Below are positions 3,641-27,333 of a stretch of DNA of 64,000 bases, in pieces. The stretch's first letter is position 1. Each line of letters begins with the position of its first letter. This DNA comes from Scytonema sp. UIC 10036 (GTDB taxonomy: Bacteria > Cyanobacteriota > Cyanobacteriia > Cyanobacteriales > Nostocaceae): positions 1-64,000 of the forward strand of contig NZ_WJFC01000017.1 of the NCBI RefSeq assembly GCF_009725235.1, written 5' to 3'. A program made the position numbers and the translations under genes. The notes under the pieces are model-generated. The model saw nothing but the letters and a program-made list of their open reading frames with translations, was not told the DNA's origin and ran no database searches.

Positions 3641-6600
3641 TTATTGTGGTGAACCACTAGGATAAGATTCAACTGCTCCCAAAGCTTTCAGGGTTTCAAC
3701 AGTTGCCTCATTTAGACCTGTAACACCAGTGATGTTCATACCCTCGTAAGGTCTTTTATCTCTGAGAGTTTGAACGCAATCACCCGTCAACACATCCCAA
3801 AGTTTAATACTGCCATCATGGCTACCACTAGCGATCGCATCACCTTTTGGGCTGAAAGTAACTGACCAAACCCAACCCGTGTGTCCCTGTAAAATTTTGA
3901 GACATTCACCCGTGCTCACATACCACAGCCTTACTGTATAATCATCACTGCTACTTGCTAATACCTGAGAATCAGGACTGAAGGCAACTGACCGAACCCA
4001 ACCCGCGTGTCCTTGCAAAGTTTTCAAGCACTCACCTGTACGGATATCCCATAGTTTCAATGTCTTATCTTCACTGGCACTTGCCAGAATGAAACCATTA
4101 GGGCTAAATGCAATTGAATATATTCGATTGGTATGCCCTTGTAAAGTTTTAAGACATTGACCTGTGTGGATATCCCAGAGTTTCACTGTATGGTCATCAC
4201 TACCACTTGCTAGAATGCGATCGTCTACACTGAAAGCGACAGTAAATATGCGGTTAGAATGCCCTTGCAGAATTTTGAAAGATTGACCCGTGCTGATATC
4301 CCATAATTTGACTGCTTGGTCTTCACCGCCACTAGCAAGAACCTGACTCGTAGGGCTAAAAGCAACTGATAGGACTCCACCAGTGTGACCTCGCAAAGTC
4401 TTAAAACATTGACCCGTGCTGATATTCCACAGCTTCACTGTTTGGTCATCACTACTACTGGCAAGGATGTTTCTATCTGGACTGAAAGTTATTGACCATA
4501 CCTTATTACTATGCCCTTTTAAGGTTCTAAAACATTTTCCTGTACTGCTGTTCCATAACCTCACCTTGCCATCATTAGTACCGCTAGCGAGCTTAGTACC
4601 TTGAGGACTGAATCCTACTGAAAATACCCAATTGGCATAACCTTGTATGGTTTTGAGACAGTGACCGCTCTTTACCTCCCAAATTTTTATTTCTTGGTCG
4701 AAAGTGCCACTAGCAAGTATAGTACCTTGAGGACTAAAAGCGACTGACAATACCCGATTACTATGATCTGCCAATATCCGGAAGCATTGGTCAGTGCGAC
4801 AATCCCAAAGCCTGACTGTTTGGTCATTACTGCTACTTGCTAATACCTGACCATCCGGACTAAAGGCAATTGACCAAAGCCCACTGCTATGTCCTGGTAA
4901 AGTTTTGAGGCATTCACCAGTACTTATATCCCACAACTTTACAGTATGGTCATCACTGGCGCTTGCTAGGATGTGACTGTTTTTCAGAGAGTAAGCAACT
5001 GACTGTACTCGCTTTGTGTGACCGTGTAGAGTTTTGAGGAGTTGAGCAGTACTTGTATCCCACAGCTTTATAGTGGAGTCATGACTACCACTTGCCAGAG
5101 TATAGCCATCCGGACTAAAGACGACAGAGAATACCCAGTTGGTGTGTCCTGTAAGATTTTTATAAACCTGACCAGTACTTACGTTCCACAACTTCACGGT
5201 GTGGTCTTCACTGCCGCTTGCTAGAATATGACCATCAGGACTGAATGCTACAGAGAATACTGTGCCGCTATGACCTTCTAAATTTCTCAGACAGTAACCG
5301 TTGCTGGTATCCCATAGCTTAATTGTTTGGTCTTCACTTCCACTCACAAGAGTCTTACCATCAGGACTGAAGCAGACCGACCAAACCCAACCTTTATGTC
5401 CTTTGCAAATGAGCAATTGTTGACCATCTGCAACTTGGTACAAGTGAATCTCACCATTTGTATCTCCTGCAGCCAAAAGTTTACCATTAGGACTAAAGGT
5501 GACTGATAAAATTGCTCCGAAACTTTCAACAAAAGCCAACTTAGCCAAATTGGCATGAGCAAAATTTACATTGTGCAATTCTACACATCGTAAATCTGCT
5601 TGCGAAATATTTAGGTAAGAGAAATCATAGCCGCTTAGATCGGTCTCCAGTTGCTTGAGTAGATTGAAAACATTTCCCCCCGTATACCCCGGTTCTAATG
5701 GAGATTCTTTTCGCAGTTTGGTTATAATTTGAGTCAGGTTTTTTGCCATGTCTTTTTTGCTTCTTAAATCCGTTAGTAGACCATCAATCACTGGTTGAAG
5801 GATGAGGCGAATTTGAGTTTGTCGTACATAATCTTTTGCAGTCGTCTTAATAAGAGCATGGCTTCTAAAAAGCTTGATATTTTGCGTTGCAATTTCTTGG
5901 CAAACTTGCTCTACCAATTGATTGGTCACATACTCCATTAACACGGGTTGTAGTGTGAAGAGTGAGAGAGGGTTTTTAATAAGTGTAGCTTTCTCGAGTA
6001 GCGATCGCTGTACTAAAGACTCTAGAGCATCCAGTAATTTTTGTAGTGGTATTCGCGATACGATATCTTCTCGTAATTCTGATAATGAAATTGGCTCGCG
6101 ATTAATTGCCAACCAGTACATGATGTCCTTTTCTAAATCTGACAAGCGTGAAAACTGCTGGTCTAAAAGCTCGTGAATGCTACCAAAGACAGCTGTCTCT
6201 TGTCTGAGAAATTCAGAAACATCACCATTAAAAAGATCTAGTATCGTCGTTGCTACTATCTTTAAGGCTAAGACGTTACCTGCATAATGCTCGACTAATG
6301 TTGTCAATTCTGACTTTGAGCCACCGAGCCCCTTAACTTCCAAAATTTTTTGTCCTGCTACCGCCTCTACACCACCCAGTTGTAATGAACGAACAGAGAG
6401 AGCTTGTCCTTCAAGTGATGCTACCTCTTTGGGTTTTTCTCGAGATGTTAATATCAAGCAACTTTGATGAATTTCTTGACCCACCCGTTTGATGAGTAAC
6501 CCATAATCCTCATAGCCTTCTCGATAGAATCCTGCGCGATCGCCACTTCGCAAAATGGTTTCAGTATTATCAAGTACTATAAGACAGCGGTGTTTGAGTA

Positions 6601-7321
6601 AATACTCAATCAGTTGTGAGATTCTACTGTTGACGCTTTTTGGTAAATCATTTTCTGAAACCTCCAAGTTGGAGAAAAATTGAATCAAGGTAGCAAGGAT
6701 TTCAAAAAGTGGCGGGGAATTGTGGAGACTTCGCCAGATAACGTACTCAAACGATCCTTGAATTTGTTGCGCTAGCTTGGCTGCAATAGAAGTTTTTCCA
6801 ATTCCCCCCATTCCCAATAGTGCTACCAATCGACAGCGATCGTTTATCAGCCATTGTTCTAGTATGTTGAGTTCTGCTGTGCGTCCGTAGAACATAGAGA
6901 CATCGATCTGTTCTCCCCAGTCTGCGCCCCTGTGAAATACCTCCTGAGCAAGGGGAGCATCCCCCTTTAATCCCCCCTTACCAAGGGGGGAAAAAGGGGG
7001 GTTTGAATTTTGGATTGAATTCTCTGAGGTTTTTTCCCCTCCCTCTGCGCTCTTAGATTTGCGCCAGAACCGCTCTAGAGCCGAGCGAAAGTTGCTTTTG
7101 CTGACTTTTTCGCCCAGTGCTTGGGTAAGCAGTTTCCAAAGTTCAGGACCCACATGTTGCTTTACATACGCCACTGAGTATCTCGCTTCAGAAGCAATTT
7201 GCTCGTAGGTCAGATTCTCCCAAGAGCCTTTGAGGATAGCGATTTCTACTTGACTCAACCGTCTTCCTACGTTCACGAACGCGGCTTCATCAGCAACTTC
7301 CAACGCTTCCTCAAAGTTCAT
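3641..7321 (-). CDS. HTH-NB-ARC-WD40 STAND protein
   Basis: About 1226 residues from the preferred ATG at 7321 (MNFEEALEV); an in-frame ATG at 7351 would add ten residues. Domains in order: an N-terminal helix-turn-helix of the type found in vWA-MoxR-associated (VMAP) proteins (residues ~1-85); a linker containing an in-frame intergenic repeat (~105-125); an NB-ARC/STAND NTPase with P-loop GMGGIGKT near residue 175 and Walker B CLIVLDNTE; a winged-helix/helical arm; then about fourteen WD40 repeats (LASGSxDxTVKLWD) forming propellers to the C-terminus. Such proteins are inactive ATPases that oligomerise when the WD40 part binds a ligand. No enzymatic effector domain is visible, so it likely acts through a partner; the neighbouring caspase and CHAT genes are candidates (inference). 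Confidence 0.9.
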   Translation of the reverse strand: MNFEEALEVADEAAFVNVGRRLSQVEIAILKGSWENLTYEQIASEARYSVAYVKQHVGPELWKLLTQALGEKVSKSNFRSALERFWRKSKSAEGGEKTSENSIQNSNPPFSPLGKGGLKGDAPLAQEVFHRGADWGEQIDVSMFYGRTAELNILEQWLINDRCRLVALLGMGGIGKTSIAAKLAQQIQGSFEYVIWRSLHNSPPLFEILATLIQFFSNLEVSENDLPKSVNSRISQLIEYLLKHRCLIVLDNTETILRSGDRAGFYREGYEDYGLLIKRVGQEIHQSCLILTSREKPKEVASLEGQALSVRSLQLGGVEAVAGQKILEVKGLGGSKSELTTLVEHYAGNVLALKIVATTILDLFNGDVSEFLRQETAVFGSIHELLDQQFSRLSDLEKDIMYWLAINREPISLSELREDIVSRIPLQKLLDALESLVQRSLLEKATLIKNPLSLFTLQPVLMEYVTNQLVEQVCQEIATQNIKLFRSHALIKTTAKDYVRQTQIRLILQPVIDGLLTDLRSKKDMAKNLTQIITKLRKESPLEPGYTGGNVFNLLKQLETDLSGYDFSYLNISQADLRCVELHNVNFAHANLAKLAFVESFGAILSVTFSPNGKLLAAGDTNGEIHLYQVADGQQLLICKGHKGWVWSVCFSPDGKTLVSGSEDQTIKLWDTSNGYCLRNLEGHSGTVFSVAFSPDGHILASGSEDHTVKLWNVSTGQVYKNLTGHTNWVFSVVFSPDGYTLASGSHDSTIKLWDTSTAQLLKTLHGHTKRVQSVAYSLKNSHILASASDDHTVKLWDISTGECLKTLPGHSSGLWSIAFSPDGQVLASSSNDQTVRLWDCRTDQCFRILADHSNRVLSVAFSPQGTILASGTFDQEIKIWEVKSGHCLKTIQGYANWVFSVGFSPQGTKLASGTNDGKVRLWNSSTGKCFRTLKGHSNKVWSITFSPDRNILASSSDDQTVKLWNISTGQCFKTLRGHTGGVLSVAFSPTSQVLASGGEDQAVKLWDISTGQSFKILQGHSNRIFTVAFSVDDRILASGSDDHTVKLWDIHTGQCLKTLQGHTNRIYSIAFSPNGFILASASEDKTLKLWDIRTGECLKTLQGHAGWVRSVAFSPDSQVLASSSDDYTVRLWYVSTGECLKILQGHTGWVWSVTFSPKGDAIASGSHDGSIKLWDVLTGDCVQTLRDKRPYEGMNITGVTGLNEATVETLKALGAVESYPSGSPQ
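6955..7008. repeat. Interspersed repeat inside a coding sequence
   Basis: The intergenic G/C-run repeat (CCCCTTTAATCCCCCC ... GGGGGG) is embedded in frame in the HTH-NB-ARC linker. It encodes a Pro/Gly-rich stretch including PPFSPLGKGGLKGD. No stop is introduced, so it acts as an added flexible linker. Confidence 0.8.
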
Positions 7322-7360
7322 AGCGTATTTATTATGTAGGTGTTTATGCAAACTTTATCA

Positions 7361-7435
7361 TAGAAGTAACTTTATCGGAACTTTACCGGAACTTTACTGT
7401 ATCGATAATTAGTGGTGATCGCTCTACACTAGGTA
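7361..7435. promoter_or_regulatory. Conserved element, copy A, 11-bp phased repeats
   Basis: Forty bases upstream of the NB-ARC-WD40 start. On the minus strand it contains TAAAGTTCCGG, TAAAGTTCCGA, TAAAGTTACTT in tandem at 11-bp spacing, preceded by AATTATCGATACAG and a GCGATCACC motif. A closely matching ~75-bp copy occurs at 20850-20925. One-helical-turn direct repeats are typical of PhoB/OmpR-type or SARP-type activator sites. The binder is unknown. Confidence 0.65.
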
Positions 7436-10721: not shown

Positions 10722-13700
10722 ATGCATGCAGATGACGCAGATCGTTTAAATGTATATCTCCAGTTTTTACTAGAGGTATTGCAAGCAATAGCAGATAGGG
10801 GAGGCAACGAGCAGGTTGTGTACCCTTTGTTGGAAGCAAATATAGATAAGCTTAATTTAAATTTAGCAGAAGTGTTACGACATTGGGCAACAAACGAACT
10901 TACGAGAGTTGCGCCAGATGAAGCACAAGATATTGCCGGAAATATCCTAATCTTTAGCGCTCTTATTCAGCAATTTCCCTTGGGTAACAGAGCCAATAAT
11001 ATAGAAATTGCTATTGCTGGCTATGAAATGGCACTCATTGTTTTTACCCGCGATGAGATCCCTGAAGACTGGGCAATGACGCAAAGTAATATGGGGACTG
11101 CCTACCGTGACAGAATCATTGGCAATCGAGCAGAGAATATTGAAAAAGCGATCGCTATCCACACTGCCGTTTTGGAAGTTAGAACCCGTGGCTCTGAAGA
11201 ATGGGCAGGAACACAAATGAATTTGGGTGCTGCCTATTTGGGCAGAATAGTTGGTAATACGGCAGACAACCTTGAAAAAGCCATTGATGCTTTCACCGCT
11301 GCGTTGGAAGTTTTTACTCGTGACAAGTTCCCTCAGCAAAGGGTGATGATACAAAATAATTTGGGTGTTGCCTACCGTAACAGAATTATTGGGGATCGAG
11401 CGGATAATATTGAAAAAGCGATCGCTACCGGCACTGATGCTTTGGAAGTTTGTACCTCTCATCAGGTGCATCAACAATGGGCAGCAATGGCACAAATTAC
11501 TTTGGGAAATGCCTACTCTGAGAGAATACGTGGCAACAGAGCGGATAATCTTGAAGAAGCTATCCAAGCATACACTGCTGCATTGGAATTTTATACTCGC
11601 GATACATTCCCTCAACCATGGGCAATGATACAAAATAATCTGGGGAATGTCTATCTTTTTAGAATACTTGGCGATCGAGCAGACGATGTTGAAAAAGCGA
11701 TCACTGCTTGTAATGCCGCGTTGGAAGTTAGAAGCCGTGACGCCTTCCCCCTAGATTGGGCTGAAACACAAAATAATTTAGGGAATGCCTACCTTGAGAG
11801 AATATTCGGCGAGAAAGCACAGAATATCGAAAGAGCGATCGCTGTCTATACCGATGCATTGAACGTTTACACCCGCAACTCCTTTCCTCAACGATGGGCG
11901 TTAATACAGAATAATCTGGGTGTTATCTACCGTAACAGAATAGTCGGTGATAAAGGAGACAATCTTGAAAGAGCGATTGCTGCTTGCAACGCCGCATTGG
12001 AAGTTTATACCTGCGACGCCTTCCCCCAACCATGGGCAGCAACACAAAATACTCTGGCAAGTGCTTACTATGAGAGAATACTTGGGGATCGAGCAGACAA
12101 TCTTGAAAGAGCGATCGCTGCTTGCAACGAGGTACTGAAAGTTTACACCTCTGAATCCTTCCCCGAATATTGGGCAACTACGCAAGATAATTTGGGAAAT
12201 GCTTACCGTAAAAGAATACTTGGCGATGAAGCTGAGAATATTGAACTTGCGATCGAGGCTTTCACTGCTGCGTTGAAAGTTAGAACCCGCGAAGACTTGC
12301 CTCAATATTGGGCAATGACGCAAATTAATCTGGGGACTGCCTACCGTGACAGAAAATTTGGTGATGAAGCTGAGAATATTCAACTTGCGATCAATGCTTT
12401 CACTGATGTATTAGAAGTATTAACCCCCAATTCCTCCCCTTATTCTTGGGCTGCAGCGCAAAATAATCTGGGAGGTGCTTGTTGGAGGATGAGAGAACAT
12501 CGCAACACAGGTGAGAATATCGTAAGAGCATTCCAAGCATACAGCGCCGCTTTGGAAGTTTACACCCGCGATGCTTTCCCCATAAATTATGTGGAAACTA
12601 AATATAATCTAGGCACTCTTTACCAAGATGGACAGCGGTTCACTGATGCTTACGCCACCTTTCGAGATGCCATTGAAACAGTAGAATTGCTGCGAGAGGA
12701 AATTATTTCTGGGTCGGAGACAAAACGCCGACAAGCAGAACAATGGCAACTGCTTTATCTCCACATGGTAGAAATTTGCCTAGCACAGGGCAACATTACT
12801 AAAGCAATAGAATATGCTGAACGGAGCAAAACCCGCAACTTAGTTGAACTTATCCTCAACCGTGACTCTGAAACTATTTTTCCTACAGATGTCGTTCAGC
12901 AACTAAAACAACTGCGAAATGAAATTGCCATAGGACAAGATAAAATTCAAAATGGCACAGCAATAAATCCCAGAGCTTTAGCCCAACATCTTCAGGAATT
13001 GCGACAGCAGCGCAATGAATTGCAAGACAAATATTTGCTAATTGGTTCTAGCTTTAATTTAAAGCAGTTTCAAGCCAATTTGAATGAACAGACTGCGATT
13101 ATCCAGTGGTATATTACCACCACGGGCTGTGAGACTTTTATTATAACTCGTAGCCATCTCCAAAGACTAAATACATCCAAGCAGGATAGCCTGAGAAATG
13201 ATTTGCTGGACTATTTTCAAAAGTATTTTACTGACTACTATCAAAACAGAACTGCGTGGAGCAATAGTTTCAACTCTCACTTCACTCATTTAGCTACAAT
13301 ATTACAAATAGAAGATATCCTCGATAAGATACCAAAATCTTGCTCGTGTCTTATCCTCATTCCTCATGTATTCCTACACCTATTTCCTCTACACGCACTC
13401 CCGTTACCTAATGGACAATTCTTGTTTGAACAATTCTCAAATGGTGTAAGTTATGCTCCAAGTTGCCAACTTTTACAACAGATACAAGAACGAGAACGCC
13501 CAAATTTCCAATCTATTTTTGCAATTCAAAACCCAACAGAAGACCTTGGATATACCAACGTGGAAGTAGAAAATATTTTGCCTCTGTTCTCTTCTCACCA
13601 AGTGTTGTCCAAAAGCCAAGCTACCAAAGCATCTATCGCTCAAGCTCTACCAAACCTACAACAGGTGAATTATCTTCACTTCTCTTGTCACGGTTATTTT

Positions 13701-15733: not shown

Positions 15734-17392
15734 ATGGAACAACTACCTTACGATAAATGTAAAAGTGACCTTCAGGATTTATTACGCTCACAATACCCTC
15801 TCATTTTTTTACGTTCCCCAGAAGAGAGCCGAGCCATGAGGTGTGTGATCGAAGCCCACCAATCCCTTATTTCTGACTCAAAGGAGATTAGAGATGGTAA
15901 ACTTGTTAGATGGAGCGGTTTAAAACACTTTGAGCACCTTTCAATGGACTCAAAGGACAAAAGTAAATACTTCTGGGAAAAGTTAGATTCTCCCTCTGAT
16001 TCAAAAGCCCCTATTCAGAAAGCCCTGAATTTCTTAGACGAGCAGTTGCAAAGCAAAGATGATTCCCAAGCTGACAGGCAACATACTTACCTTTTACCAG
16101 AATGGTCAACGTTTATAAAACCTGATACTGATAAAGAAGCTCGCCAGCTTAAGGAATTAGTTATTGCCTTAGATCAAAAAAGACCCAGACCAAGAATGAG
16201 TTTAATTGTTGTGGGTGCATATTGGTCGATTCCAGTGATCCTTCGTAACAGCGTTCATATTTTAGATTTAGCTTTACCAAATGCTGAAGAACTCTATGAA
16301 AGTGTATTCCAAGTAGCTGCTGACAAAAAATTGATTAGTCATGATATTGCCAAAAGTCTCTCAAAACAAGCTCAAGGAATGCCATTCCAAGCAGCAGAGC
16401 AAGTAGGAAGGCTAATCAAAACACGTGATTTATGGTTAAACCCTCAAGAAGCAGGTCGGCTACTTGTAGAAGTCAAAAAACAAGAAATTAGGAAAACTGG
16501 AGTTTTGGAATATGATGCTCCTCAAGGGCAGGGGTTTCAGAATGTTGGGGGCTTAGAAGAAATTAAAAAATGGGTTAAAGAACGCAAAAAATGGTTTGAG
16601 CAAGATACTCTTCAACCTAAGCTCCGTCCGCGTGCTATCCTCTTGGAAGGTTATCCTGGGTGCGGGAAGACATTTATTGCTAAGGCGATCGCACAGGAAT
16701 GGGGAGTCCCACAAATTAACTTTGAAATTTCGCGTTTGCAAGCCAAGTACGTAGGTGAATCAGAAAGTAATACATATCAGGCATTGAGAGCAATTGAAGC
16801 GTCAGCGCCTAACCTCCTATTTATAGATGAAATTGAAAAAGCTTTTTCTGGAGTTGGGGGCGACAGTTCGGGAGTTTCGACGCGGCAGTTTGGTATGTTC
16901 TTATCTTGGTTGAATGACCACAACTATCCTATCTTTGTGATAGCCACTTCTAACGATCGAAGCAAGCTTCCTCCTGAACTATTTAGAGCAGGCCGCTTCG
17001 ATGAAATTTTTATCGTTATGCCACCAAACACCAAGGAACGTAGGGAGATCATCCAGACGAAAGCTAAGTATTATGAACTCCTCTCACCTATTGATGAAAG
17101 TACTCTCAATGACCTAGCAAACAAAACTAGGGGATTTTCGGGAGCCGAGTTGGATAAACTTGTGAAAGAAACAGTTTATTGGTCAGATGGTTTATCACCA
17201 ACTCACAATGACTGGATAGAGGTTGTAAAAACAATCCAACCCCAGTATCTTACACCCAAAATGCAAACTCTATTGAATAATTATTTGAAACTGATAGATA
17301 GCAAGGGTGGAAGATCTGCTTCATCTGTTGATGATGAAGATCCAGATTTTCCAAAAAACCTCATAATGCAAGAATATAATTATCCAAGTTAA
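15734..17392 (+). CDS. AAA ATPase, CDC48/Ycf46-like
   Basis: 552 residues. The N-terminal third (residues ~15-250) resembles the non-catalytic AAA-like part of Ycf46-type proteins. The AAA core has Walker A GYPGCGKT (306-313), Walker B FIDEIE with Asp365/Glu366, sensor-1 ATSN and the second region of homology FRAGRFDE with arginine fingers, then the helical lid GFSGAELDKLV. This is the classic AAA clade, not a MoxR-type AAA+. It should unfold or remodel a protein partner. It follows the TerB-like gene by 9 bp and ends convergently with the vWA cassettes, the set expected for an ATPase-vWA chaperone switch. Confidence 0.9.
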   Translation: MEQLPYDKCKSDLQDLLRSQYPLIFLRSPEESRAMRCVIEAHQSLISDSKEIRDGKLVRWSGLKHFEHLSMDSKDKSKYFWEKLDSPSDSKAPIQKALNFLDEQLQSKDDSQADRQHTYLLPEWSTFIKPDTDKEARQLKELVIALDQKRPRPRMSLIVVGAYWSIPVILRNSVHILDLALPNAEELYESVFQVAADKKLISHDIAKSLSKQAQGMPFQAAEQVGRLIKTRDLWLNPQEAGRLLVEVKKQEIRKTGVLEYDAPQGQGFQNVGGLEEIKKWVKERKKWFEQDTLQPKLRPRAILLEGYPGCGKTFIAKAIAQEWGVPQINFEISRLQAKYVGESESNTYQALRAIEASAPNLLFIDEIEKAFSGVGGDSSGVSTRQFGMFLSWLNDHNYPIFVIATSNDRSKLPPELFRAGRFDEIFIVMPPNTKERREIIQTKAKYYELLSPIDESTLNDLANKTRGFSGAELDKLVKETVYWSDGLSPTHNDWIEVVKTIQPQYLTPKMQTLLNNYLKLIDSKGGRSASSVDDEDPDFPKNLIMQEYNYPS

Positions 17393-17478: not shown

Positions 17479-17563
17479 CCTGCGAGGAATCCTGTGAGAA
17501 ATCCTGTGAGGATAAATATCCCTCCCAATCCTGTGAGGAATCCTGTGAGGAATCCTGTGAGGA
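17479..17563. repeat. 12-bp tandem repeat AATCCTGTGAGG
   Basis: CCTGTGAGGAAT-type units recur about six times, interrupted once by a TAAATATCCCTCC segment. It lies between the convergent AAA and vWA operons, resembles the short tandemly repeated repetitive sequences of heterocystous cyanobacteria, and has no evident coding role. Confidence 0.75.
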
Positions 17564-17678
17564 TAGATATTTTACACTCCACCATGTTAATACAACTACG
17601 GCACCAACTAAAAATTCCATCTTGTCTCCCTAGAATAATATTATTGTTTTCTACTAAATTGACTCAAAAATCTTACTG

Positions 17679-17999
17679 CTACAAGGACTGCGGTTGTTCT
17701 ATTTGCTTAGTAGTTTCACGCTCATCGGATTCCTCCTCTTCTAAAGCGTAACTTTCAATGTTCTTACTAGCTTCCTCTTGTGAAACTCTTTTTTCTAGAG
17801 CTATTTCGGCAGCTTGCGCTATTTTTTCTCCAAAAGGTTTTTCATTCTTTATATACTCAAGCATCTTTGTAAAGATTTCATTTTTAGATAAATGACTGTG
17901 CCGATCAAAAACAGGTCTGAGAGTTTCCAGAAAAGATTCAAGAGCCAATTGTGGATTGACTTTTTTAACTATTTCCCAAGCTTTATCTACGATATTCAT
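17679..17999 (-). CDS. Small helical partner protein, copy 2
   Basis: 106 residues beginning MNIVDKAWEIVKKVNPQ. It is a paralogue of the protein at 18621-18947 along its length: MNIVDKAWE start, ESFLE.L.P.F, NEK.FGE..AQAA, EEAS. All-helical, with an acidic, low-complexity C-terminus. No known family recognised. It follows the dead vWA copy, so it is the second half of a duplicated vWA-helical cassette. Conservation with its paralogue after duplication suggests it is or recently was functional, perhaps as an adaptor for the vWA protein. Confidence 0.75.
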   Translation of the reverse strand: MNIVDKAWEIVKKVNPQLALESFLETLRPVFDRHSHLSKNEIFTKMLEYIKNEKPFGEKIAQAAEIALEKRVSQEEASKNIESYALEEEESDERETTKQIEQPQSL

Positions 18000-18069: not shown

Positions 18070-18513
18070 TCACATCTCGTCTTTTTCCAAGCTGTAAATA
18101 AAACTCTTTGAATCAAGAATTGCGTTGAGCAGTACTTCTGATATGCTCATTTTTTCCATGTCCTCCATCGAAACTGTCTCGCATATATCAAACTTTGCTC
18201 CAGCTCTTTGTAGTTCATCATCTAGGTGTTTGAGAAATTGAGCCACTTGCGGATCTGTGCCTACTTAGATAAAAGAAATTGCTCGCTCTTCATCCCTTTC
18301 CATTTGCCCAGAAGCCTCAATAATCATTTTCTTCAGTGCTTCAGGATTGTCTAGTTCACCATTTGTTACCACCAAAATGGTTTCACCATTGGGTTTAGTC
18401 TGACCAACAGCTTTGCGCTCAAAACAGCTATTTGTTGCATCTTTGAGTAAACTTGCCATATGAGTCCTACCGGAGGGATCATTCCTAATTTCTCGTGTTC
18501 CGTCTATACACAT
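18070..18513 (-). pseudogene. Dead vWA-domain copy
   Basis: The frame from 18513 matches the middle of the neighbouring vWA protein (NDPSGxTxMASxLKDATNS, GETILVVT) but has lost the N-terminal part carrying the DxSxS metal site. TDGEPDD has become TNGELDN, and a CAA-to-TAA change at 18265-18267 stops it at AISFI. In the same frame the rest of the domain continues intact (VGTDPQVAQFLKHLDDEL ... EVLLNAILD) to TGA at 18070-18072. Truncation, loss of metal ligands and a nonsense codon all mark it as non-functional. Confidence 0.88.
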
Positions 18514-18620: not shown

Positions 18621-18947
18621 TTAAGTATTTTGCATTAATATCTCCTCTTGGTTGCGTTCTGGCTGCTCTTCTTCCTCTGTTTCCAAATTGTTGTAACTAC
18701 TTTCAACCTCCTTGCTTGCTTCTTCCATTGAAACTGGATTATTTAAGGCATAGGCAGCGGCTTGCGCTAATATTTCTCCAAAGAGTTTCTCATTCTTGAT
18801 AGCTTCAAGCATCTTTGTCATAAGCTCGTCGTCAGACAAATCCTTGTTCTCCTCAAAAATAGGTTTGAGCTTTTCTAAAAAAGATTCAATTATTAAATCA
18901 GGGGATACGTTTTTCAGCATTTCCCATGCTTTGTCCACTATATTCAT
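18621..18947 (-). CDS. Small helical partner protein, copy 1
   Basis: 108 residues from ATG 18947 (MNIVDKAWEMLKNVSP); an in-frame start further upstream exists, but alignment with copy 2 and the overlap with the vWA gene favour 18947. All-helical, with a strongly acidic tail (ETEEEEQPE). It lies about 40 bp downstream of an intact vWA gene on the same strand. Function unknown; consistent pairing with a vWA gene in both cassettes indicates that the two proteins work together. Confidence 0.78.
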   Translation of the reverse strand: MNIVDKAWEMLKNVSPDLIIESFLEKLKPIFEENKDLSDDELMTKMLEAIKNEKLFGEILAQAAAYALNNPVSMEEASKEVESSYNNLETEEEEQPERNQEEILMQNT

Positions 18948-18987
18948 AGATATTTGTCTCCAAGTAACAGCTTCAGTAAACACCTTT

Positions 18988-19593
18988 TTAGTCAAGAATC
19001 GCGTTCAGCAGCACTTCTGATAGGCTCATTTCTTCCATATCCTCCATCGTAACTGTATCGCATATATCAAACTTTGCTCCATTGCTTTGTAGTTTGTCAT
19101 CTAGGTGTTTGAGAAATTGAGTTGCTTGCGGATCTGTGCCAACTTGGATAAAAGAAATTGCTAGCTCTTCATCCCGTTCCATTCGCCCAGAAGCCGCAAT
19201 AATCACTTTCTCCAGTGCGTCGGGATCGTCTGGTTCACCATCTGTTACTACCAAAATGGTTTCACCTGCGGGTTTAGTCTGACCAGTAGCTTTGCGCTCA
19301 AAATAGCTATTTGTTGCATCTTTGAGTACACTTGCCATATCAGTGCTACCGGAGGGATCATTTTCTTGAAAAATTTGTTTTACCTTACTTGATGTCACAT
19401 TGTCGTAACGTTTATATCTGCTTGAAAACAGATAAACTGTGATCCCATCTGGGTCAAATTGTTCGCATTTACTTGCTAAAGCAAAAGTTGACTCTTGTGC
19501 TGTCAACCATCTACTTCTACCACCCGGTTGGTCTGGAGTAGACATACTACCACTTTTATCAATAATGATGGTGTAGTCACGGTTTTCTAACAT
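18988..19593 (-). CDS. vWA-domain protein (TerY-like), copy 2
   Basis: 201 residues, essentially one von Willebrand A domain. The MIDAS is complete: DKSGS (Asp12, Ser14, Ser16), the Thr of SGSTDMAS, and the Asp of VTDGEPDD. It is soluble, with no signal peptide, like the TerY/TerF vWA proteins of Ter systems. It is a close paralogue of the protein at 19645-20265, and the stop/start gap between them is 51 bp. It likely binds a protein ligand in a metal-dependent way as part of the AAA-TerB set encoded convergently. Confidence 0.9.
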   Translation of the reverse strand: MLENRDYTIIIDKSGSMSTPDQPGGRSRWLTAQESTFALASKCEQFDPDGITVYLFSSRYKRYDNVTSSKVKQIFQENDPSGSTDMASVLKDATNSYFERKATGQTKPAGETILVVTDGEPDDPDALEKVIIAASGRMERDEELAISFIQVGTDPQATQFLKHLDDKLQSNGAKFDICDTVTMEDMEEMSLSEVLLNAILD

Positions 19594-19644: not shown

Positions 19645-20265
19645 TTAATCATGGATTGCGTTTAACAGGACGTCTGTAAGGCTCATATCTTCCAAATCAT
19701 CTAGGGTAACTGTGTCACAAATGTCAAATTTCGCGCCCTCTTCTTGCAGTTGATTGTCCAATATCTTAAGGAATTTGGTTGCCTGGGGATCTGAGCCAAC
19801 TTGAATCATTGAAATTGCCAGTTCTTCATCCCGTTCTATTTGACGTGATGCCTTGACAAGCGTCTCCATCACAGCTTTACAATCGTCTGGCTCTCCATCT
19901 GTCATCACTAAAATAGTTTCACCTTCAAGCTGGCTGTGTCCAGTAGCCTTACGCTGAAAGTAGTTATTTATCGCATCCTCAAGTACAGATGCAAGGTTAG
20001 TTCTGCCGGTCGGCTCGTTTTCTTGGAAAATTTGTGTAACTTTACTCGAGGTTACTTTGTCATACCTTTGAAAGCGTCCTGAAAAAACATAAACAGTAAT
20101 ACCGTCTGGATCTAACTGTTCGCACTTTCTTGCTAGAGCTAAGGTAGACTCTTGAACTATGTCCCATCTACTTCTTCCACCCGATTGGTCTGGGGTAGAC
20201 ATACTACCACTTTTGTCAATGATTAAAGTGTAGTCGCGATTTCTTTTATTTTCTAGCGAAGTCAT
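19645..20265 (-). CDS. vWA-domain protein (TerY-like), copy 1
   Basis: 206 residues and the first gene of the minus-strand cassette array. The MIDAS residues are Asp17, Ser19, Ser21 (DKSGSMS), the Thr in TGRTNLAS and the Asp in MTDGEPDD. The core RDYTxIIDKSGSMSTPDQ is almost identical to copy 2, with differences mainly at surface positions. A full vWA fold with nothing appended points to a regulatory binding subunit. The upstream 0.9 kb is non-coding and separates it from the divergent GH26 gene, so a shared control region is possible. Confidence 0.9.
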   Translation of the reverse strand: MTSLENKRNRDYTLIIDKSGSMSTPDQSGGRSRWDIVQESTLALARKCEQLDPDGITVYVFSGRFQRYDKVTSSKVTQIFQENEPTGRTNLASVLEDAINNYFQRKATGHSQLEGETILVMTDGEPDDCKAVMETLVKASRQIERDEELAISMIQVGSDPQATKFLKILDNQLQEEGAKFDICDTVTLDDLEDMSLTDVLLNAIHD

Positions 20266-20925: not shown

Positions 20926-21204
20926 GCAATCCTAGTTGAATTGTGAGAGAATACGTAGTAATCTTGTCCAGACTCAAGGTCAAATTTAATTTATCCATAG
21001 CGATTATAAATCGCGGCTATACAGACGAAACCTGCCTCCGCAGAACTGTACAAAGAAACCAACTTGTGATACTTATCTTTTGGCTCTTGTTTATTAACTT
21101 TTAGCTGACAATCGCCCAACTTGGTACAGAAGTCAACCTTAGTTAAACTCATCTCAAACAGTTTTTGCAACATAACTAAAAGTGTAGTTCCTCAGGAGAA
21201 TTTT

Positions 21205-22677
21205 ATGGTGACCTCAATTCGCGTCAATGCTGGTGGAGGAGCGATCGGAATCTATGGCTCAGATGCCTACTACAGTGGCGGTCAAACCGCGTCGAGCAAC
21301 GCTCCCGTCGATGGTAGCGGTGTCTATTACCCGGCAAATCAGGAAGTTTATCAAACCGAACGGTACGGCACCTTCACCTACACCTTTACGAACTTGACCC
21401 CGAACGTCATCCATACTGTCAAGCTTCACTTTAACGAACACTATTGGAGTTCAGTAGGGAAGCGCAAATTTAACGTTGCGATTAACGGTACGCGAGTTTT
21501 GTGGGATTATGATATTTTCTCCCAAACTGGGGGCATCAATAAGGCGATCGCTGAAGAATTTGTGGTAACCTCAAATGCCAGGGGGCAGATTGTAGTGGAC
21601 TTCACACCGGGCGCTGCCGATCGACCCTCAGTGAGCGGCTTTGAAATCAACCAGGGCACCCGTCCGCATAACAATATGCTCTTAGGCTGCTTCCCTGGCT
21701 ACGCCAATATCAACGACATGGAATCCTGGTTGGGTAAAAAGCACGCCGTGCAGGTCATGTTTACAAGCTGGGACCCGAACAACAAGCAGGACACTTTCAC
21801 CAGGATGAAAAATATCTGGGATAGTAGGAACGTACCTATAGTGACGTGGGAGGTCTTCACTGACGACAAAAATCGCTATGCACCGCCGAATATCGACGCG
21901 CTGATTGCCAACGGCAACTACGATCGCTATTTAAACGATTGGGCTGATAGTATGAAGAGCTTTCTCGCAGGTTCTGGCGGTGTATACGGTGATGCTGACG
22001 ACCGCCGTGTCTACCTGCGGTTTGCCCATGAGATGAACGGCGACTGGTACCCCTGGTCTGCCAGTTATAAAAACTCCCAGAACACGCCTACTGACTATAT
22101 CAATATGTGGCGACATGTTTGGACGGTCTTCAAAAATAAAGGTATCGATAGTAATCATTTGCAGTGGATGTGGGCACCTATGAACGTCGATGTTGGTACG
22201 CCGCTCCACAAAGCTGAGTCTTACTGGCCAGGTGATAGCTATGTTGATTGGGTCGGTATTGACGCCTACAACTGGGGCACCAGCCAGTCTTGGTCAAATT
22301 GGACACCTCCCATTGCGCTGCTGGATGACATGATTAACCGCCTCTCAGGCTACGGCAAGCCCCTAGCAATCCCAGAGTATGGCACAAGCAGCGTTAACTA
22401 CGGTAGTAACAATGTTGGCGCAAAGGGTCAGTGGATTGTAGAAATATTCGACTATCTCTCGGTCAAACCCCAGATTAAAATGCTTTGTTACTTCAATATC
22501 GATAAAGAGACGGACTGGGCTATCTTTGGTGGAGGTCGTGGCGACAGCACTCACACCATAGGCTCGACCGTCTACCAGGTTTACTCTACTTACAAAGCAC
22601 GAATTGGCGCAAACTATATCATCCCTGGCGGTACCAGCCCCCAACTCCTGACAGATGCTCAGTTCAAAGGTTTGTAG
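21205..22677 (+). CDS. Malectin-like plus GH26 glycoside hydrolase
   Basis: 490 residues from ATG 21205 (MVTSIRVNAGG), chosen because CAGGAGAA lies just upstream; an earlier in-frame ATG at 21121 lacks this. Residues ~1-150 are a malectin-type carbohydrate-binding beta-sandwich (RVNAGGGAIG ... FNEHYW ... VSGFEIN). Residues ~160-470 form a GH26 (endo-mannanase/related) barrel with acid/base Glu276 in FAHEMNGDW and nucleophile Glu391 in IPEYGTS. No classical signal peptide is seen, although a polysaccharide substrate is expected; export may be non-classical, or the enzyme may act on internal polymer. It is flanked by unrelated conflict-type genes. Confidence 0.9.
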   Translation: MVTSIRVNAGGGAIGIYGSDAYYSGGQTASSNAPVDGSGVYYPANQEVYQTERYGTFTYTFTNLTPNVIHTVKLHFNEHYWSSVGKRKFNVAINGTRVLWDYDIFSQTGGINKAIAEEFVVTSNARGQIVVDFTPGAADRPSVSGFEINQGTRPHNNMLLGCFPGYANINDMESWLGKKHAVQVMFTSWDPNNKQDTFTRMKNIWDSRNVPIVTWEVFTDDKNRYAPPNIDALIANGNYDRYLNDWADSMKSFLAGSGGVYGDADDRRVYLRFAHEMNGDWYPWSASYKNSQNTPTDYINMWRHVWTVFKNKGIDSNHLQWMWAPMNVDVGTPLHKAESYWPGDSYVDWVGIDAYNWGTSQSWSNWTPPIALLDDMINRLSGYGKPLAIPEYGTSSVNYGSNNVGAKGQWIVEIFDYLSVKPQIKMLCYFNIDKETDWAIFGGGRGDSTHTIGSTVYQVYSTYKARIGANYIIPGGTSPQLLTDAQFKGL

Positions 22678-22704: not shown

Positions 22705-25700
22705 TCATTTTTGAATTCCGATACCGTTACAGAGAGTGCGATCGCTCTCACTAATATTGGGGTTAGTTTCCAGATAATCGCGCACCCAATCGCAACCATA
22801 TGCCATTACCTTATCTAGATCGACAACTCGATCCAAATTCCACAGAATCACTGTCTTGTCCTCACTTGCTGAGGCGAGCTTTTTACTGTCAGGACTGAAA
22901 GCAACTCCCCAAACCTTACCACTGTGTCCATTAAGAGTAGCCAGTAAAACAGGCAACTTGCCTGTCTCCACTTTCCACACTTTGACGGTTTTGTCTGCAC
23001 TTGCTGAAGCAATCATCTTGCCATCGGGACTGAAAGCCACTTCAAAAACCGTAGCCCCATGTCCTTCAAGAGTGGTCAGTAAAGTACCGTCTCGCTTCCA
23101 GAGTTTGACCGTCTTGTCGTCACTTGCAGAAGCAATTATATTGCCGCAGGGGCTGATTGCAAGTCCCCAAACCCCTGCTTTGTGCCCCTCAAGCGTTTTC
23201 AGCAAAGTGCCGTTTTTGTTCCACAGTTTCACCGTATTGTCTGCACTGACCGAGGAAATCATCTCACCGTCAGGGCTAAAAGCAACATCCCAAATCGGTT
23301 GTAGATGCCCCTCAAGAGTTTTCAACAAGGTACCGTTTTTGTTCCATAGTTTTACAGTGCTGTCCCAACCCGCCGAAGCGATAGTCTTCCCGTCGGGGCT
23401 GATTGCAACTCCCCAATTACCAGTTTTGTGTCCCTTAAGAGTATTTAGCAAAGTGCCATCTTTGTTCCACAGTTTGACTGTGTTGTCCAAGCCCACCGAT
23501 GCGATCGCACTACCGTCGGGACTGAAAACGACTCCATAAACTGCAATTTTACTATCGAGCGTCACAGGTAAAATACCATCCTGCTTCCAGAGTTTTAAAG
23601 TTCCATCGTCACTTCCTGAGGCAACTACCTTACCATCAGGACTGATTGCAACTCCGATAACCGGAGCAGTATGACCTCTGAAAGTCGTTAGCAAAGCACT
23701 ATTTAGTTTCCAAAGTTTGATAGTCTTGTCTCCAACCGAGGCTAAAGTTTTGCCATCAGGACTAAAAGTGACTCCCCAAATCCGATCGCTATGTCCATTA
23801 AGCGTAGTCAACAAACTGCCGTCTTTGTTCCAGAGCTTGAGAGTGTTATCCCAACTTACCGAAGCTAGAGTTTTCCCGTCAGGGCTGAAAGCAACTCCCG
23901 AAACGGGAGCTTGATGTCCCTCCAGAGTTTTTAGCAACGTGCCATCCTTGTTCCACAGTTTAACAGTGGTGTCTCCACTAGCCGAGGCAAGAGTCTTACC
24001 GTCAGGGCTGAAAGCAACATCCCAAACTACACTTTTATGCCGAGCGAGCGTGGTCAACAGCGCGCCGTTCTTATTCCATAGTTTGATAGTGCTGTCCCCA
24101 CTAGCCGAGGCGATGGTATTCCCGTCGGGGCTAAAAGCAACTGCCTGAACCGAAGTTCCATGTCCCTTAAAGGTAGCTAATAAGGTAGGTATCCTCCCCG
24201 ACACTTTCCAGAGTTTCACACTACTGTCATCACTTGTTGAAGCAATTATGTTGCCGTCAGGGCTAAAAGCAACATCTAAAACCCCAGCCTCATGTTCCTT
24301 AAGAGTAGCGATCGCCGTGCCGTCCCGCTTCCATAGTTTAATAGTCTTGTCTGCACTTGCTGAAGCTAGAGTCTCACCGTCCGGGCTGAAAGCAACTTTG
24401 TAAACCGTACCCTTGTGCCCCTGTAGGGTTGTCAGCAACATACCCTCTTTGCTCCACAGTTTGACGCTATAGTCATCACTTGTTGAAGCAATTATGTTGC
24501 CATCTGGGCTAAAAGCTGAGCTTTTAACTTCACTGTTGTGCCCTAACAAGCGGTTGTACTCTACCGCCCCATAAACTGCCCGCCGGAGTACTAATTCAAC
24601 CTGATTCTGAGTTTTTGCGTCCACCATACCTAACTTTTGCAGTTTTCGCCTCGCCCTGATTGCTTCTATAAGCGCATCCAACTTTTGATTTGAGGCAAAT
24701 AGCGCTGCTGATGATTCGCTAATAGCTTTGACTTCACTTTGGGCTGAATTCTGCCATTGCCACCAAGCTCCCCCAGCTAGCATCAAGGCTACTAGCGAAC
24801 CACCAGTCAGCCCAAAAGTAATTAGCTGTCGTCTCTGCCTCTGTTTTTGCTGCTCTTGTTTCTGCCTTTTGATGCTAGCGGTAATAAAATCTCGCGCTCG
24901 TGGTGTTAGTTCATCTCCCCGTTGTTTGTACCAATCTTCTGCTACGGCTAGCCGCGTTCCTTGCAACAAGGCTTGTGGATTTTGATGACTATTTTCCCAG
25001 TCACGTACATCTTGCTTGAACCTTTCTTGCCAAATCCGAAACTCACGGTTAGTTGTTATCCACTTTCGCAGAGTGCCCCATTCCCGAATTAATGCTTCAT
25101 GAACAATTTCTACTGTTTCTATTTTCTCAGTTTCATCCCACCCAGTCACCACTAAACGCGCATCAGCCAAGCGTTGGACTAAATCCCAATTTTCTTCCCC
25201 CACCTCAGCGCGAGTTGCCACACGTTTGGTGTCTTCCGTTCCTTCCCCAGGATGCACTAACTGAATAAATACCTGTTCAGCTTGTTGTTTCTCCACAGCA
25301 GATAGCGGATTTAAGACAAACGAAGCATATTTTGCTAAAGCTTTTTCTAAACCGCCAATTTCTTCATAAGCCTTGTGAGTCAAATACCAATTATTCTGTT
25401 TCGACCAGAGTTGAGTTAAGGCAAACTCCAGCATTGGTAAACGACCAGGGTGATTGCCCACATCATTAATGAGTTTACTTGTTAACCCCTCCTCCAGTTC
25501 CACCTTCATTTTTAAAGCTGGTTTTTCAATCGCATCTCGCAATTCCTCAGAATCCATTAGAGTCAGTAACAATGGGGAGTATTGCTGCAAAGCCTTTCCC
25601 ATGGAGCGATCGTCAAGCACAATTCCCAAAAAATCTGCTCGCAACGTCAATACCAGCGTAAACGTTTGAGCATATCTTACAGCTAAAAGCAATGACTTTA

Positions 25701-27333
25701 AAAAACTGTGGCGTTCTTCCTGAGTAGCAAGAGTGTAAAGTTCTTCAAACTGGTCTGCTACTAACACCAAACGCCGATATCCTGAGGAACTAATAATATT
25801 TTCGATACAATAATGTAATACTGTTTCATCACGTCGCAAGTTAACCTCAGATTCTAGTTCCGCTAAAGAGCTGTTCTGTTCTCCTGATGCTTTTGTTTGT
25901 ATTTTTACCAGAGTCTGGTAATATTTACTCAATGCTACAGCCAAAGCATCAAAAGGATTTTTTCCCGGACGAAAACTGATTATTTCTACATTCCCAGTAG
26001 CTTCTAAACGAGGAATCAACCCTGCAAACACCACAGAAGACTTTCCACTCCCAGAAGCACCAACTACAGGAACTAACGAGTTGCTGTTAACAGCTTCCAC
26101 TAACTTACCAATAAACTTCTCCCTACCAAAAAAGAAATCTGCGTTTTCCTGGCGAAATGCAGATAAACCTTGATAAGGACACTCAGGAAGTTCGCCAGAA
26201 ATTCCTCCCAAATCTTCCCAACTCGGTGGAGCGAGAGTGGTATTTTGACAGATAATTGGCAACCAGCTAACCCCCGGTAACTGCTTGGCAATATCTTTGT
26301 CATCTGCAAGTTCACAGAGCTTATCTCTGGCTTGTCGGACTGAATTAAATAAAGATTCCCCTTGGGAAAAAGAACTTAAAAAATATTGGAGAAATTTTTG
26401 TGCTAATTTATCTGGTACTTCTTCGCGCCAGACAATGATGTAGGGAAGATTTAAGTCTGCCAATTGTTTTGCTAAACCCAGACCATTACAAGAATTGAAT
26501 ATGGCTAATTTTAAACCTTTGTTAATTGCTGCTCTCAGGGTTCTTTTGATTTCTTCTAAACTTAAACTATCTTTGGGATTAATATTGATGACACCTTTTT
26601 GACCATCATCTTGAGTTTCGCTATGACCTGCAAAAAACAGAATGTCGCAAGGTTCTTCCCAAAGAGCGTTAAAATCTGAACGATTTGGTTCAGTAAGAAA
26701 GATGAGTTCTGCTGCTCGTTTCTGTAATTTTTGGAGCAATTCTTTATCTGTACTGGTGTCAATATTTGTACTATCTCCAAAAATACTGAGAATCCTAGCT
26801 CTTCTAATTTTACCAGCAATTGATGATTCCTCAAATGCGGCAGGACTGGCAATACAAGATTGAAAACAGACAGCCGCTTCACAAGAAAACTTTTGAGCCA
26901 AAAAATCCCATTCTTGCCAAGGGAGTCGATGTAAGATGTCCTTAGTTGTGTGTGATGCAATTTTCTCAGTATGAACAACCAAACGAATTTCTTGCTGGGG
27001 ATTTTGTGGCAGTGCTTGCTTTAATTCTAACTCAATAGGGTGAAGCCACTGATGAAGTTGATGGCGTAAACGCTCAACTGAATGATGACAATCAGTTTTG
27101 GATACATGAGTGACTTGGCTATTTTTAAACTTGCCTCTAGAATGGCTCAGTAACGAGTAGTATTGCTCTTTCCAACGTTGATAAAAAACTGGAATTTCCT
27201 CATCTGGAGATAATTGCAGTTCTAGTTGTGTGAGATTACACTCTGCATTTGCTAACGTTACCTTAAGATTGATTTTACTAAACCCGCGCTCAAAGTTACC
27301 ATCGCCAAATTCCAAATTTACCCATACTTCCAT
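22705..27333 (-). CDS. CHAT-STAND-WD40 protein
   Basis: 1542 residues. The N-terminal CHAT protease domain carries His237 (FFAGHSE) and Cys282 (FNSCNG). A STAND-type ATPase follows, with Walker A GASGSGKS (425-432) and downstream LVADQFEELY. A hydrophobic span near residue 840 (LTGGSLVALMLAGGAWW) could anchor it to the membrane. WD40 repeats run from ~920 to ~1500 (about fourteen, VAFSPDGKTLASxSxDxTVKLW), ending in the conserved CDWVRDYL ... SDRTLC tail. Here effector, switch and sensor are one chain: ligand binding by the propellers should drive ATP-dependent assembly and activate the protease. Confidence 0.93.
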   Translation of the reverse strand: MEVWVNLEFGDGNFERGFSKINLKVTLANAECNLTQLELQLSPDEEIPVFYQRWKEQYYSLLSHSRGKFKNSQVTHVSKTDCHHSVERLRHQLHQWLHPIELELKQALPQNPQQEIRLVVHTEKIASHTTKDILHRLPWQEWDFLAQKFSCEAAVCFQSCIASPAAFEESSIAGKIRRARILSIFGDSTNIDTSTDKELLQKLQKRAAELIFLTEPNRSDFNALWEEPCDILFFAGHSETQDDGQKGVININPKDSLSLEEIKRTLRAAINKGLKLAIFNSCNGLGLAKQLADLNLPYIIVWREEVPDKLAQKFLQYFLSSFSQGESLFNSVRQARDKLCELADDKDIAKQLPGVSWLPIICQNTTLAPPSWEDLGGISGELPECPYQGLSAFRQENADFFFGREKFIGKLVEAVNSNSLVPVVGASGSGKSSVVFAGLIPRLEATGNVEIISFRPGKNPFDALAVALSKYYQTLVKIQTKASGEQNSSLAELESEVNLRRDETVLHYCIENIISSSGYRRLVLVADQFEELYTLATQEERHSFLKSLLLAVRYAQTFTLVLTLRADFLGIVLDDRSMGKALQQYSPLLLTLMDSEELRDAIEKPALKMKVELEEGLTSKLINDVGNHPGRLPMLEFALTQLWSKQNNWYLTHKAYEEIGGLEKALAKYASFVLNPLSAVEKQQAEQVFIQLVHPGEGTEDTKRVATRAEVGEENWDLVQRLADARLVVTGWDETEKIETVEIVHEALIREWGTLRKWITTNREFRIWQERFKQDVRDWENSHQNPQALLQGTRLAVAEDWYKQRGDELTPRARDFITASIKRQKQEQQKQRQRRQLITFGLTGGSLVALMLAGGAWWQWQNSAQSEVKAISESSAALFASNQKLDALIEAIRARRKLQKLGMVDAKTQNQVELVLRRAVYGAVEYNRLLGHNSEVKSSAFSPDGNIIASTSDDYSVKLWSKEGMLLTTLQGHKGTVYKVAFSPDGETLASASADKTIKLWKRDGTAIATLKEHEAGVLDVAFSPDGNIIASTSDDSSVKLWKVSGRIPTLLATFKGHGTSVQAVAFSPDGNTIASASGDSTIKLWNKNGALLTTLARHKSVVWDVAFSPDGKTLASASGDTTVKLWNKDGTLLKTLEGHQAPVSGVAFSPDGKTLASVSWDNTLKLWNKDGSLLTTLNGHSDRIWGVTFSPDGKTLASVGDKTIKLWKLNSALLTTFRGHTAPVIGVAISPDGKVVASGSDDGTLKLWKQDGILPVTLDSKIAVYGVVFSPDGSAIASVGLDNTVKLWNKDGTLLNTLKGHKTGNWGVAISPDGKTIASAGWDSTVKLWNKNGTLLKTLEGHLQPIWDVAFSPDGEMISSVSADNTVKLWNKNGTLLKTLEGHKAGVWGLAISPCGNIIASASDDKTVKLWKRDGTLLTTLEGHGATVFEVAFSPDGKMIASASADKTVKVWKVETGKLPVLLATLNGHSGKVWGVAFSPDSKKLASASEDKTVILWNLDRVVDLDKVMAYGCDWVRDYLETNPNISESDRTLCNGIGIQK

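Follow-up and report, generated by a model that had tools for sequence, protein, structure and literature searches.

A mosaic of conflict-type genes in Scytonema sp. UIC 10036 and a C-terminal tail that may dock a helical adaptor on a p97-like AAA protein

Does a dense run of conflict-type genes encode one system, or have several come to lie side by side? This question is raised by a stretch of Scytonema sp. UIC 10036 (contig NZ_WJFC01000017.1, positions 1 to 64,000), the whole of which, 64,000 nucleotides, is called the window here. Within 24 kb of it lie genes for NB-ARC–WD40, caspase, TPR-CHAT, AAA, vWA and CHAT–STAND–WD40 proteins, which an earlier note had read as a single sense-switch-kill system. 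The window proteins were checked by translation, Pfam and motif inspection (ten of them in the main Pfam scan), and the domain-rich genes named in the note do exist. On balance, we lean toward the view that the region is a mosaic, in which the so-called TerB-like protein of the AAA–vWA set likely plugs into the AAA ring through its C-terminal tail.

Module boundaries were drawn from the independent occurrence of the genes across other cyanobacterial genomes. Three modules were obtained: a TPP/KAS III/NB-ARC–WD40 group, a caspase/TPR-CHAT pair, and a TerB-like/AAA operon facing vWA and helical genes. No caspase or TPR-CHAT match occurs in any of the 23 loci with an AAA ortholog, and none of the four loci with a caspase ortholog holds an AAA or vWA gene; the AAA, caspase and TPR-CHAT loci compared span 5.3–19.5 kb, several of them ending at contig edges. 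The AAA/vWA genes and the protease genes thus occur scattered and independently, so the single-system reading fails the test of a conserved neighbourhood that the earlier note had itself set, and the result for the 23 AAA loci leads us to reject the unity of the island. Of the supposed unit, the caspase/TPR-CHAT pair and the TerB-like/AAA/vWA/helical quartet each find support as a sub-unit, but their union does not. At the level of whole genomes, the caspase ortholog (4 of 208 genomes) and the AAA ortholog (13 of 217) do not overlap; this carries little weight, because only 0.24 genomes would be expected to share both by chance. Cross-talk between the caspase/TPR-CHAT and AAA–vWA modules is not supported by co-occurrence.

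The AAA protein and the tail of its neighbour

The AAA gene (15734..17392, + strand) encodes a p97-like ATPase with a Pfam AAA match at E 3.5e-28 and a Walker A motif, GYPGCGKT, from residue 306. PF00004 is its best Pfam family (99 bits, a single stretch at residues 302–427), and its closest solved chains are those of VCP/p97, which places it outside the MoxR clade. Across the order, 14 of 388 genomes have a strong ortholog at E ≤ 1e-90. At E ≤ 1e-80, one turned up in 13 of the 217 genomes searched from one family, in 5 of 386 from the phylum and in 2 of 20 from the family to which Symploca sp. SIO2E6 (G255) belongs. These sets overlap and amount to 22 distinct genomes with 23 loci. Three of the scans (14/388, 5/386 and 13/217) scored only the best 3 to 6 candidates per genome, so these counts may be low. 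In the tree, the orthologs form one fully supported clade, separate from paralogs of about 500 residues that share 34–37% identity with the window protein, occur in all 10 genomes searched and can be aligned in part with its N-terminal region. We take these paralogs to be Ycf46-like.

Directly upstream lies the gene of a helical protein of 283 residues (14873..15724, + strand), regarded here as an adaptor, whose C-terminal tail runs KPSDIF...ATGKADF. The two genes had been described as a TerB-like/AAA operon. The AAA gene bears this out with its intact Walker A motif, whereas the TerB identity is not supported: the adaptor has no PF05099 match, while true TerB proteins of two other loci (L052 and L188) do match PF05099, and hhalign, run on shallow profiles, put a match to a TerB-containing family at 0.8% and 0.4% probability. 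"TerB-like" is used below as an unproven label. The adaptor has no match in Pfam (even at E ≤ 10), PADLOC or NCBIfam, and its sole PHROG match is weak (E 4.8e-5) and belongs to a family of unknown function. A word-limited search that covered 5.8 billion proteins turned up one relative, P0002, with 46% identity. A TerB-like pattern scan of genome contigs returned 60 matching stretches, none confirmed. On plasmids, the TerB-like/AAA operon gave no megablast match and the TerB-like, AAA, helical and caspase proteins gave no tblastn match within the limits set for these searches, which for AAA and caspase were 1e-60.

Similar tails recur in the other AAA loci. The open reading frame (ORF) directly upstream of AAA ends in an acidic-Phe tail in 20 of the 23. 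The motif, [ADPGYF][DE]F, had to lie no more than two residues from the C-terminus; 5 of 1502 control ORFs from 80 vWA loci carry it. The three AAA loci that fail are L118, where the adaptor ORF was not found, L119, a fusion, and L134, which is rearranged. The count is only descriptive, because the motif was written after the likeness had been seen. Alignment against shuffled sequences is the better control. The last 45 residues of the window adaptor, including KPSDIF, align with the adaptor tails of L107, L110 and L111 at scores of 70–80, and none of 2000 shuffles equalled these scores. The front parts of the window adaptor and of the adaptors in the operons that we call type A have no detectable similarity. 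The former is helical in a poor model; the latter have a common YPEDYF stretch, with no Pfam match in the one tested. In L119, where the TerB-like domain is fused to AAA, the tail is absent.

From these observations we infer that the C-terminal tail may be a portable docking tail for exchangeable adaptors. The new element is likely the tail peptide itself, common to two otherwise different partners, each of which it would plug into the motor.

The type-A operons (L105–L118 and L128–L135) show the company that the AAA orthologs keep elsewhere. A vWA-type protein accompanies AAA in 22 of the 23 loci, namely in 21 by motif scan and in L119, the exception being L134. In the 21, a protein of 369–478 residues with a vWA-type motif lies upstream; among five such proteins examined with Pfam, VWA_2 is above the cut-off in L107 and L110 and below it in L106, L112 and L115. 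At least one GTPase-like gene is present in 15 of the 23 loci (motif scan), and in the one operon tested these genes match the Pfam double-GTPases below the cut-off. Several type-A operons have a 4Fe-4S/radical-SAM-type gene, seen by eye and Pfam-tested in L134, and a large protein with a peptidoglycan-binding domain is also encoded (L107). Kaur et al. 2020 (PMC7159879) describe GTPase-centric conflict systems as nearly absent in cyanobacteria. The type-A operons are possibly a GTPase-linked conflict system and may be the cyanobacterial counterpart of these systems. We found no description of the AAA/adaptor/vWA family in the titles or abstract openings of the open-licence papers that literature searches returned.

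We propose, tentatively, that a cyanobacterial, MoxR-free AAA–vWA motor family takes interchangeable adaptors through this portable C-terminal docking tail and could be re-aimed by swapping the tail-bearing domain. One version would combine GTPases and a membrane vWA protein, and the other the helical adaptor and a small helical subunit. The AAA protein would act as a p97-like hexameric unfoldase or remodeller. The tail would dock the adaptor on it, and the adaptor would bring or sense a client. The vWA protein, with its metal ion-dependent adhesion site (MIDAS), may capture the client or else the tail with its acidic residue, and the small helical protein could serve AAA–vWA pairs as a regulator or an extra subunit. 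Together, the vWA and helical proteins may aid in selecting or gripping the client.

The facing vWA and helical genes and the weighing of the tail reading

The genes that face the AAA operon lie on the - strand. Small helical protein 2 (17679..17999, 106 residues) is convergent with AAA, its 3' end lying 287 bases past the AAA stop, and small helical protein 1 (18621..18950) is 56% identical to it. The stretch at 17480-17570, between the convergent AAA and helical genes, holds short repeats in tandem, seen by eye, whose unit resembles AATCCTGTGAGG. The two helical proteins, each just over 100 residues, flank a decayed third vWA copy (~18112..18483, - strand). The vWA genes proper follow, vWA2 at 18988..19593 (Pfam VWA_2, TerF-like vWA) and vWA1 at 19645..20265 (also matched by Pfam). 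Both have an intact MIDAS, with the motifs DKSGS, a GRTN/GSTD stretch and TDG. Their lengths of 201 and 206 residues comprise the vWA domain only, and both pass the TerF-like family PF10138 (33.5 and 31.4 bits, cut-off 29.4). The third copy is 80% identical to vWA2 by tblastn, with 89% DNA identity over 377 bases. It begins at vWA2 residue 78 and thus lacks the first MIDAS motif; the missing first 77 residues and an in-frame stop rule out a functional third vWA gene. The vWA-helical cassettes of the earlier note are convergent to the AAA operon, as described, but only one of them has an intact vWA gene.

A model of helical protein 2 has four helices, with a predicted local distance difference test (pLDDT) score of 77–85 over residues 1–70. 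The best Foldseek match had E 1.2, and matches to MIT domains (E 1.6–4.7) were not significant. The helical family comprises 10 protein-database matches, including the window's own two. It was found in 4 of 330 genomes of the order, namely G255, G131, G163 (twice) and G005 (a degraded fragment); among 217 genomes of one family, a single one has it, and only as that degraded fragment. The fragment in G005 (L159:5379-5561, E 2.6e-4, one stop) lies about 440 bases from a TPR-CHAT gene; it is weak and was not used. In two other loci the helical gene has another kind of AAA (AAA_2) and another vWA as neighbours, together with a kinase, FHA and PP2C at L161:765-9649 (G163) and with a kinase at L162:2025-9760 (G131). 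The vWA protein P0005 and the helical protein P0128 come from one source and are each encoded on a contig of 1524 bases, probably a shared one.

The Symploca locus L119 (contig G255:C952) contains a vWA gene, the TerB-like~AAA fusion (771 residues) and a convergent helical gene, which lies about 260 bases downstream of the fusion gene, as its window equivalent lies downstream of AAA. The L119 vWA protein is 50% identical to vWA2. The comparison supports the reading of the TerB-like/AAA/vWA/helical quartet as a putative sub-unit with one diverged counterpart.

Throughout Nostocales, the vWA pair has many close relatives, with identities of about 80%. A genome scan returned 219 relatives, of which the best 80 were kept; in these 80 loci there are two vWA genes in 71, three in 6 and one in 3 (ORF clustering). 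A gene of about 131 residues lies 3' of the pair in 69 of these 80 loci (L001–L080); the copy in L009 has repeated SIFGG-type motifs. A tree was built that took in 28 of these 71 loci with two genes. In it, vWA2 joins P0004 and P0005 in the clade of Nostocales downstream copies, among vWA proteins of heterocyst-forming cyanobacteria. vWA1 falls outside that clade and is nearest the upstream copies by path, on a long branch whose placement is unsure. To judge from these comparisons, the common vWA pair seems to have been recruited, with the helical genes taking the position of the third gene. Three plasmid records match vWA in other contexts, and scans of viral contigs for vWA, helical and AAA genes gave none confirmed.

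Several observations weigh against the tail reading and against the unity of the quartet. The tail resemblance was spotted by eye before the motif was defined, so that no part of the count was blind. L107, L110 and L111 are closely related and count as a single case. The alignments of the window tail with L105 and L112 do not stand out from shuffled sequences: 219 and 564 of 2000 shuffles, respectively, scored as well. P0002 retains KPSDIF yet ends in AYFD and fails the motif. The AlphaFold2 (AF2) model of the TerB-like protein has a pLDDT of only 42. L119 is the only other complete quartet, with identities of 22% for TerB-like, 51% for AAA and 50% for vWA, and the Symploca and window AAA proteins are both long branches that do not group in the tree. 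Neither AAA nor vWA has a match on the 4-kb contig (L160) of the other helical copy of G163. Kinship of the type-A vWA proteins can only be distant, since tblastn with the window or L119 vWA misses them (1 of 23 AAA loci matched, L119 itself). Finally, the 80 sampled loci of the common Nostocales vWA pair hold no AAA, TerB-like or helical gene, and the tie of the window vWA genes to the AAA operon could therefore be recent or accidental.

Two other explanations of the AAA–vWA set have to be considered, each possible though rather doubtful. The tail may be a client signal or a MIDAS ligand, so that the vWA protein would grip its acidic residue and the AAA protein would unfold or recycle the adaptor itself. 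The tail does terminate in Asp/Glu-Phe, MIDAS sites of MoxR–vWA systems bind peptides according to Kaur et al. 2020 (PMC7159879), and a vWA-type gene stands alongside the tail-bearing gene in nearly all loci. However, the L119 fusion has lost the tail and kept its vWA protein, and docking to the AAA protein fits this better than a MIDAS ligand does.

Alternatively, the AAA–vWA set could be a housekeeping or stress chaperone, acting in Ycf46-like regulation of CO2 use or redox state or in CbbQO-like enzyme repair, and not in conflict. The presence of the 500-residue paralogs, presumably Ycf46, in every genome searched is consistent with such a role, as is the frequency of vWA-pair relatives across Nostocales. 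A role in CO2 use has been reported for Ycf46 (Jiang et al. 2015, as cited in PMC12172450). The patchy distribution of the AAA ortholog (14 of 388 and 13 of 217 genomes) and the rarity of the TerB-like and helical proteins argue against it, as do the GTPase-like genes of the type-A operons, with the below-cut-off double-GTPase matches of the single operon tested. We retain docking of the adaptor on the AAA ring as the working proposal.

The protease pair, the anchor and other neighbours

The caspase-domain protease (C14; 8407..10479, + strand) matches Pfam at E 1.8e-32, with SGHG from residue 90 and DSCHSG from residue 150. The TPR-CHAT protease (10722..14297, + strand) matches CHAT at E 5.3e-52, with the His motif FSCHG from residue 987 and the Cys motif LSACETG from residue 1057. 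Both assignments of the earlier note, an orthocaspase with intact His/Cys and a TPR-CHAT protease, were borne out. A caspase ortholog at E ≤ 1e-90 is present in 4 of the 208 genomes searched. A TPR-CHAT gene is present in all four caspase loci, compared with 3 of 80 control loci, 60 of which are at least 20 kb long (Fisher p 1.8e-5). It adjoins the caspase gene except in G010, where the two are about 3.5 kb apart. The comparison supports the caspase/TPR-CHAT gene pair as a putative recurring sub-unit.

The pairing is one of kind and not of an orthologous pair, because the partner TPR-CHAT proteins in the four caspase loci are only 23–26% identical to that of the window and no caspase lies near a window-type TPR-CHAT in any of 16 loci, two findings that weigh against a fixed pair. 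One may also suppose that the two genes are unrelated neighbours that met by chance in a gene-rich hotspot. TPR-CHAT genes are indeed abundant, with matches at 1e-150 in 74 of 208 genomes, from which the 16 caspase-free loci were taken. We regard a chance meeting as improbable in view of the four caspase loci and their controls. The one AAA match among the 16 loci (L186, 31% identity) belongs to a paralog and not to the AAA ortholog.

It is possible that the TPR-CHAT protein senses a signal and then switches on the caspase by cleavage or assembly. This step is suggested by analogy with the type III-B cascade, in which CHAT reportedly acts on a caspase. The notion of one sense-switch-kill system, in which an AAA–vWA–TerB-like sensor would activate the caspase and TPR-CHAT proteases and kill infected or damaged cells, is very unlikely: the genes are packed in 24 kb with intact active-site motifs, and Kaur et al. 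2020 (PMC7159879) describe FtsH-type MoxR–vWA ternary systems with caspase-like effectors, but no AAA or caspase locus joins both sets, and no effector-associated domain is among the listed family matches, in which no search aimed at such domains was made.

Upstream of the proteases lies the anchor neighbourhood, outside the proposed machine. It is formed by a TPP-dependent enzyme (246..2111, + strand; Pfam TPP_enzyme N/M/C), a KAS III-like enzyme (2147..3268, + strand; Pfam ACP_syn_III) and the NB-ARC–WD40 protein (3641..7351, - strand; Pfam WD40 and NB-ARC, the latter at 47.1 bits; P-loop GMGGIGKT). An HTH domain had also been assigned to the last of these; the NB-ARC and WD40 domains and the P-loop are confirmed, while the HTH was seen by eye only. 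A search for KAS III homologs (E ≤ 1e-100) gave 9 matches in 5 of 12 genomes, a sample that is not random because it was drawn from genomes already found with caspase, TPR-CHAT, AAA or vWA genes. Eight of the nine matches were examined as loci (5 genomes; G747 three times, G754 twice). The TPP enzyme adjoins KAS III in all eight (L199–L206), as it does in L151 and L188. A homolog of NB-ARC–WD40 residues 144–580 lies within about 1.5 kb of KAS III in four of the eight, and none of the eight holds a caspase, CHAT, AAA or vWA match. The NB-ARC–WD40 homolog is also found at the same anchor in L188 and, truncated by the contig end, in L151. From its predicted homologs, NB-ARC–WD40 belongs with the TPP/KAS III anchor, a trio that recurs without the remaining window genes.

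The anchor of L188 (G789) carries a true TerB, a TPR-CHAT with 63% identity to that of the window, NB-ARC, a GTPase and a dynamin-like protein, and that of L151 (G792) carries GTPases, another TPR-CHAT, a caspase with 82% identity to that of the window and a CHAT protein. In L188 the true TerB (11814-12203, PF05099) lies immediately upstream of the window-type TPR-CHAT. Since L188 and L151 carry differing gene sets, we infer that conflict-type genes probably come and go at the TPP/KAS III/NB-ARC anchor.

The CHAT–nSTAND1–WD40 protein (22705..27333, - strand; nSTAND1 E 3.7e-113, CHAT 38.7 bits) was correctly recognized in the earlier note and is an independent neighbour: homologs of its CHAT-like N-terminal part occur in one of 4 caspase loci, one of 23 AAA loci and one of 80 controls. 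Inside the supposed island, a malectin–GH26 protein (21121..22677, + strand) is encoded in the interval that separates the CHAT–STAND gene from the vWA genes. Farther downstream, the window encodes a kinase–AAA–GAF–PAS–histidine kinase of 2238 residues followed by a LuxR-type response regulator (44207-51566). A TnsA endonuclease (42067-42876), a TniQ match in a short ORF (52680-53270) and a phage-type integrase (53878-54342) may be left over from a mobile element, Tn7-like or of another kind.

The region illustrates that a domain-rich cyanobacterial "conflict island" can be composed of separate modules, where effectors assigned by co-location alone would be credited to the wrong machine. If the docking proposal is true, the AAA–vWA switches that are thought to set thresholds in multicellular bacteria would gain a branch without MoxR, and partner choice by AAA–vWA motors would follow a short peptide rule that can be tested. 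The caspase/TPR-CHAT pairing offers a setting for asking whether CHAT proteases activate caspases outside CRISPR.

Comparison with known systems

In the type III-B cascade that Steens and co-workers are said to have described in 2024, a SAVED-CHAT protease reportedly acts on a prokaryotic caspase. The window likewise has CHAT and caspase genes in one locus, both with catalytic motifs. In contrast to SAVED-CHAT, the window protein has TPR repeats, and no SAVED is among the 16 families listed for it (E ≤ 0.1). CRISPR genes are absent among the window genes scanned, though no search was aimed at CRISPR genes or arrays. Craspase/Csx29 (type III-E) shares the TPR-CHAT architecture, but the window protein reaches only 61 bits in NCBIfam NF041237, against a cut-off of 300.

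Compared with Ter and TerY-P type systems, the window vWA proteins match the TerF-like family, whereas the "TerB-like" protein fails TerB; the helical family likewise occurs in a kinase/PP2C/FHA/vWA locus, L161. The AAA protein that we take to be Ycf46 is related at 34–37% identity, and the window AAA differs from it in clade and neighbourhood.

A parallel in overall composition is seen with the MoxR–vWA ternary conflict systems, whose third component is VMAP, iSTAND, FtsH or a beta-propeller (Kaur et al. 2020, PMC7159879; for iSTAND2/TERNS3, PMC8195603). These systems, like the window, bring together in one cyanobacterial neighbourhood an AAA+ ATPase, a vWA protein and one further component. 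The VMAP logic invoked in the earlier note finds no echo: VMAP is not among the Pfam matches listed for the ten proteins, and the TerB-like protein is Pfam-negative at E ≤ 10. Extra small helical proteins are reported for FtsH-type ternary systems in PMC7159879. Those systems have two FtsH-type AAA domains and MoxR, whereas the window AAA has one PF00004 stretch and no MoxR is found among the scanned genes. Unlike the MoxR–vWA ternary systems as a whole, the window has a p97-like AAA protein, bare vWA domains of about 200 residues with no effector fusion and, as its third component, a helical protein whose tail is common to other adaptors.

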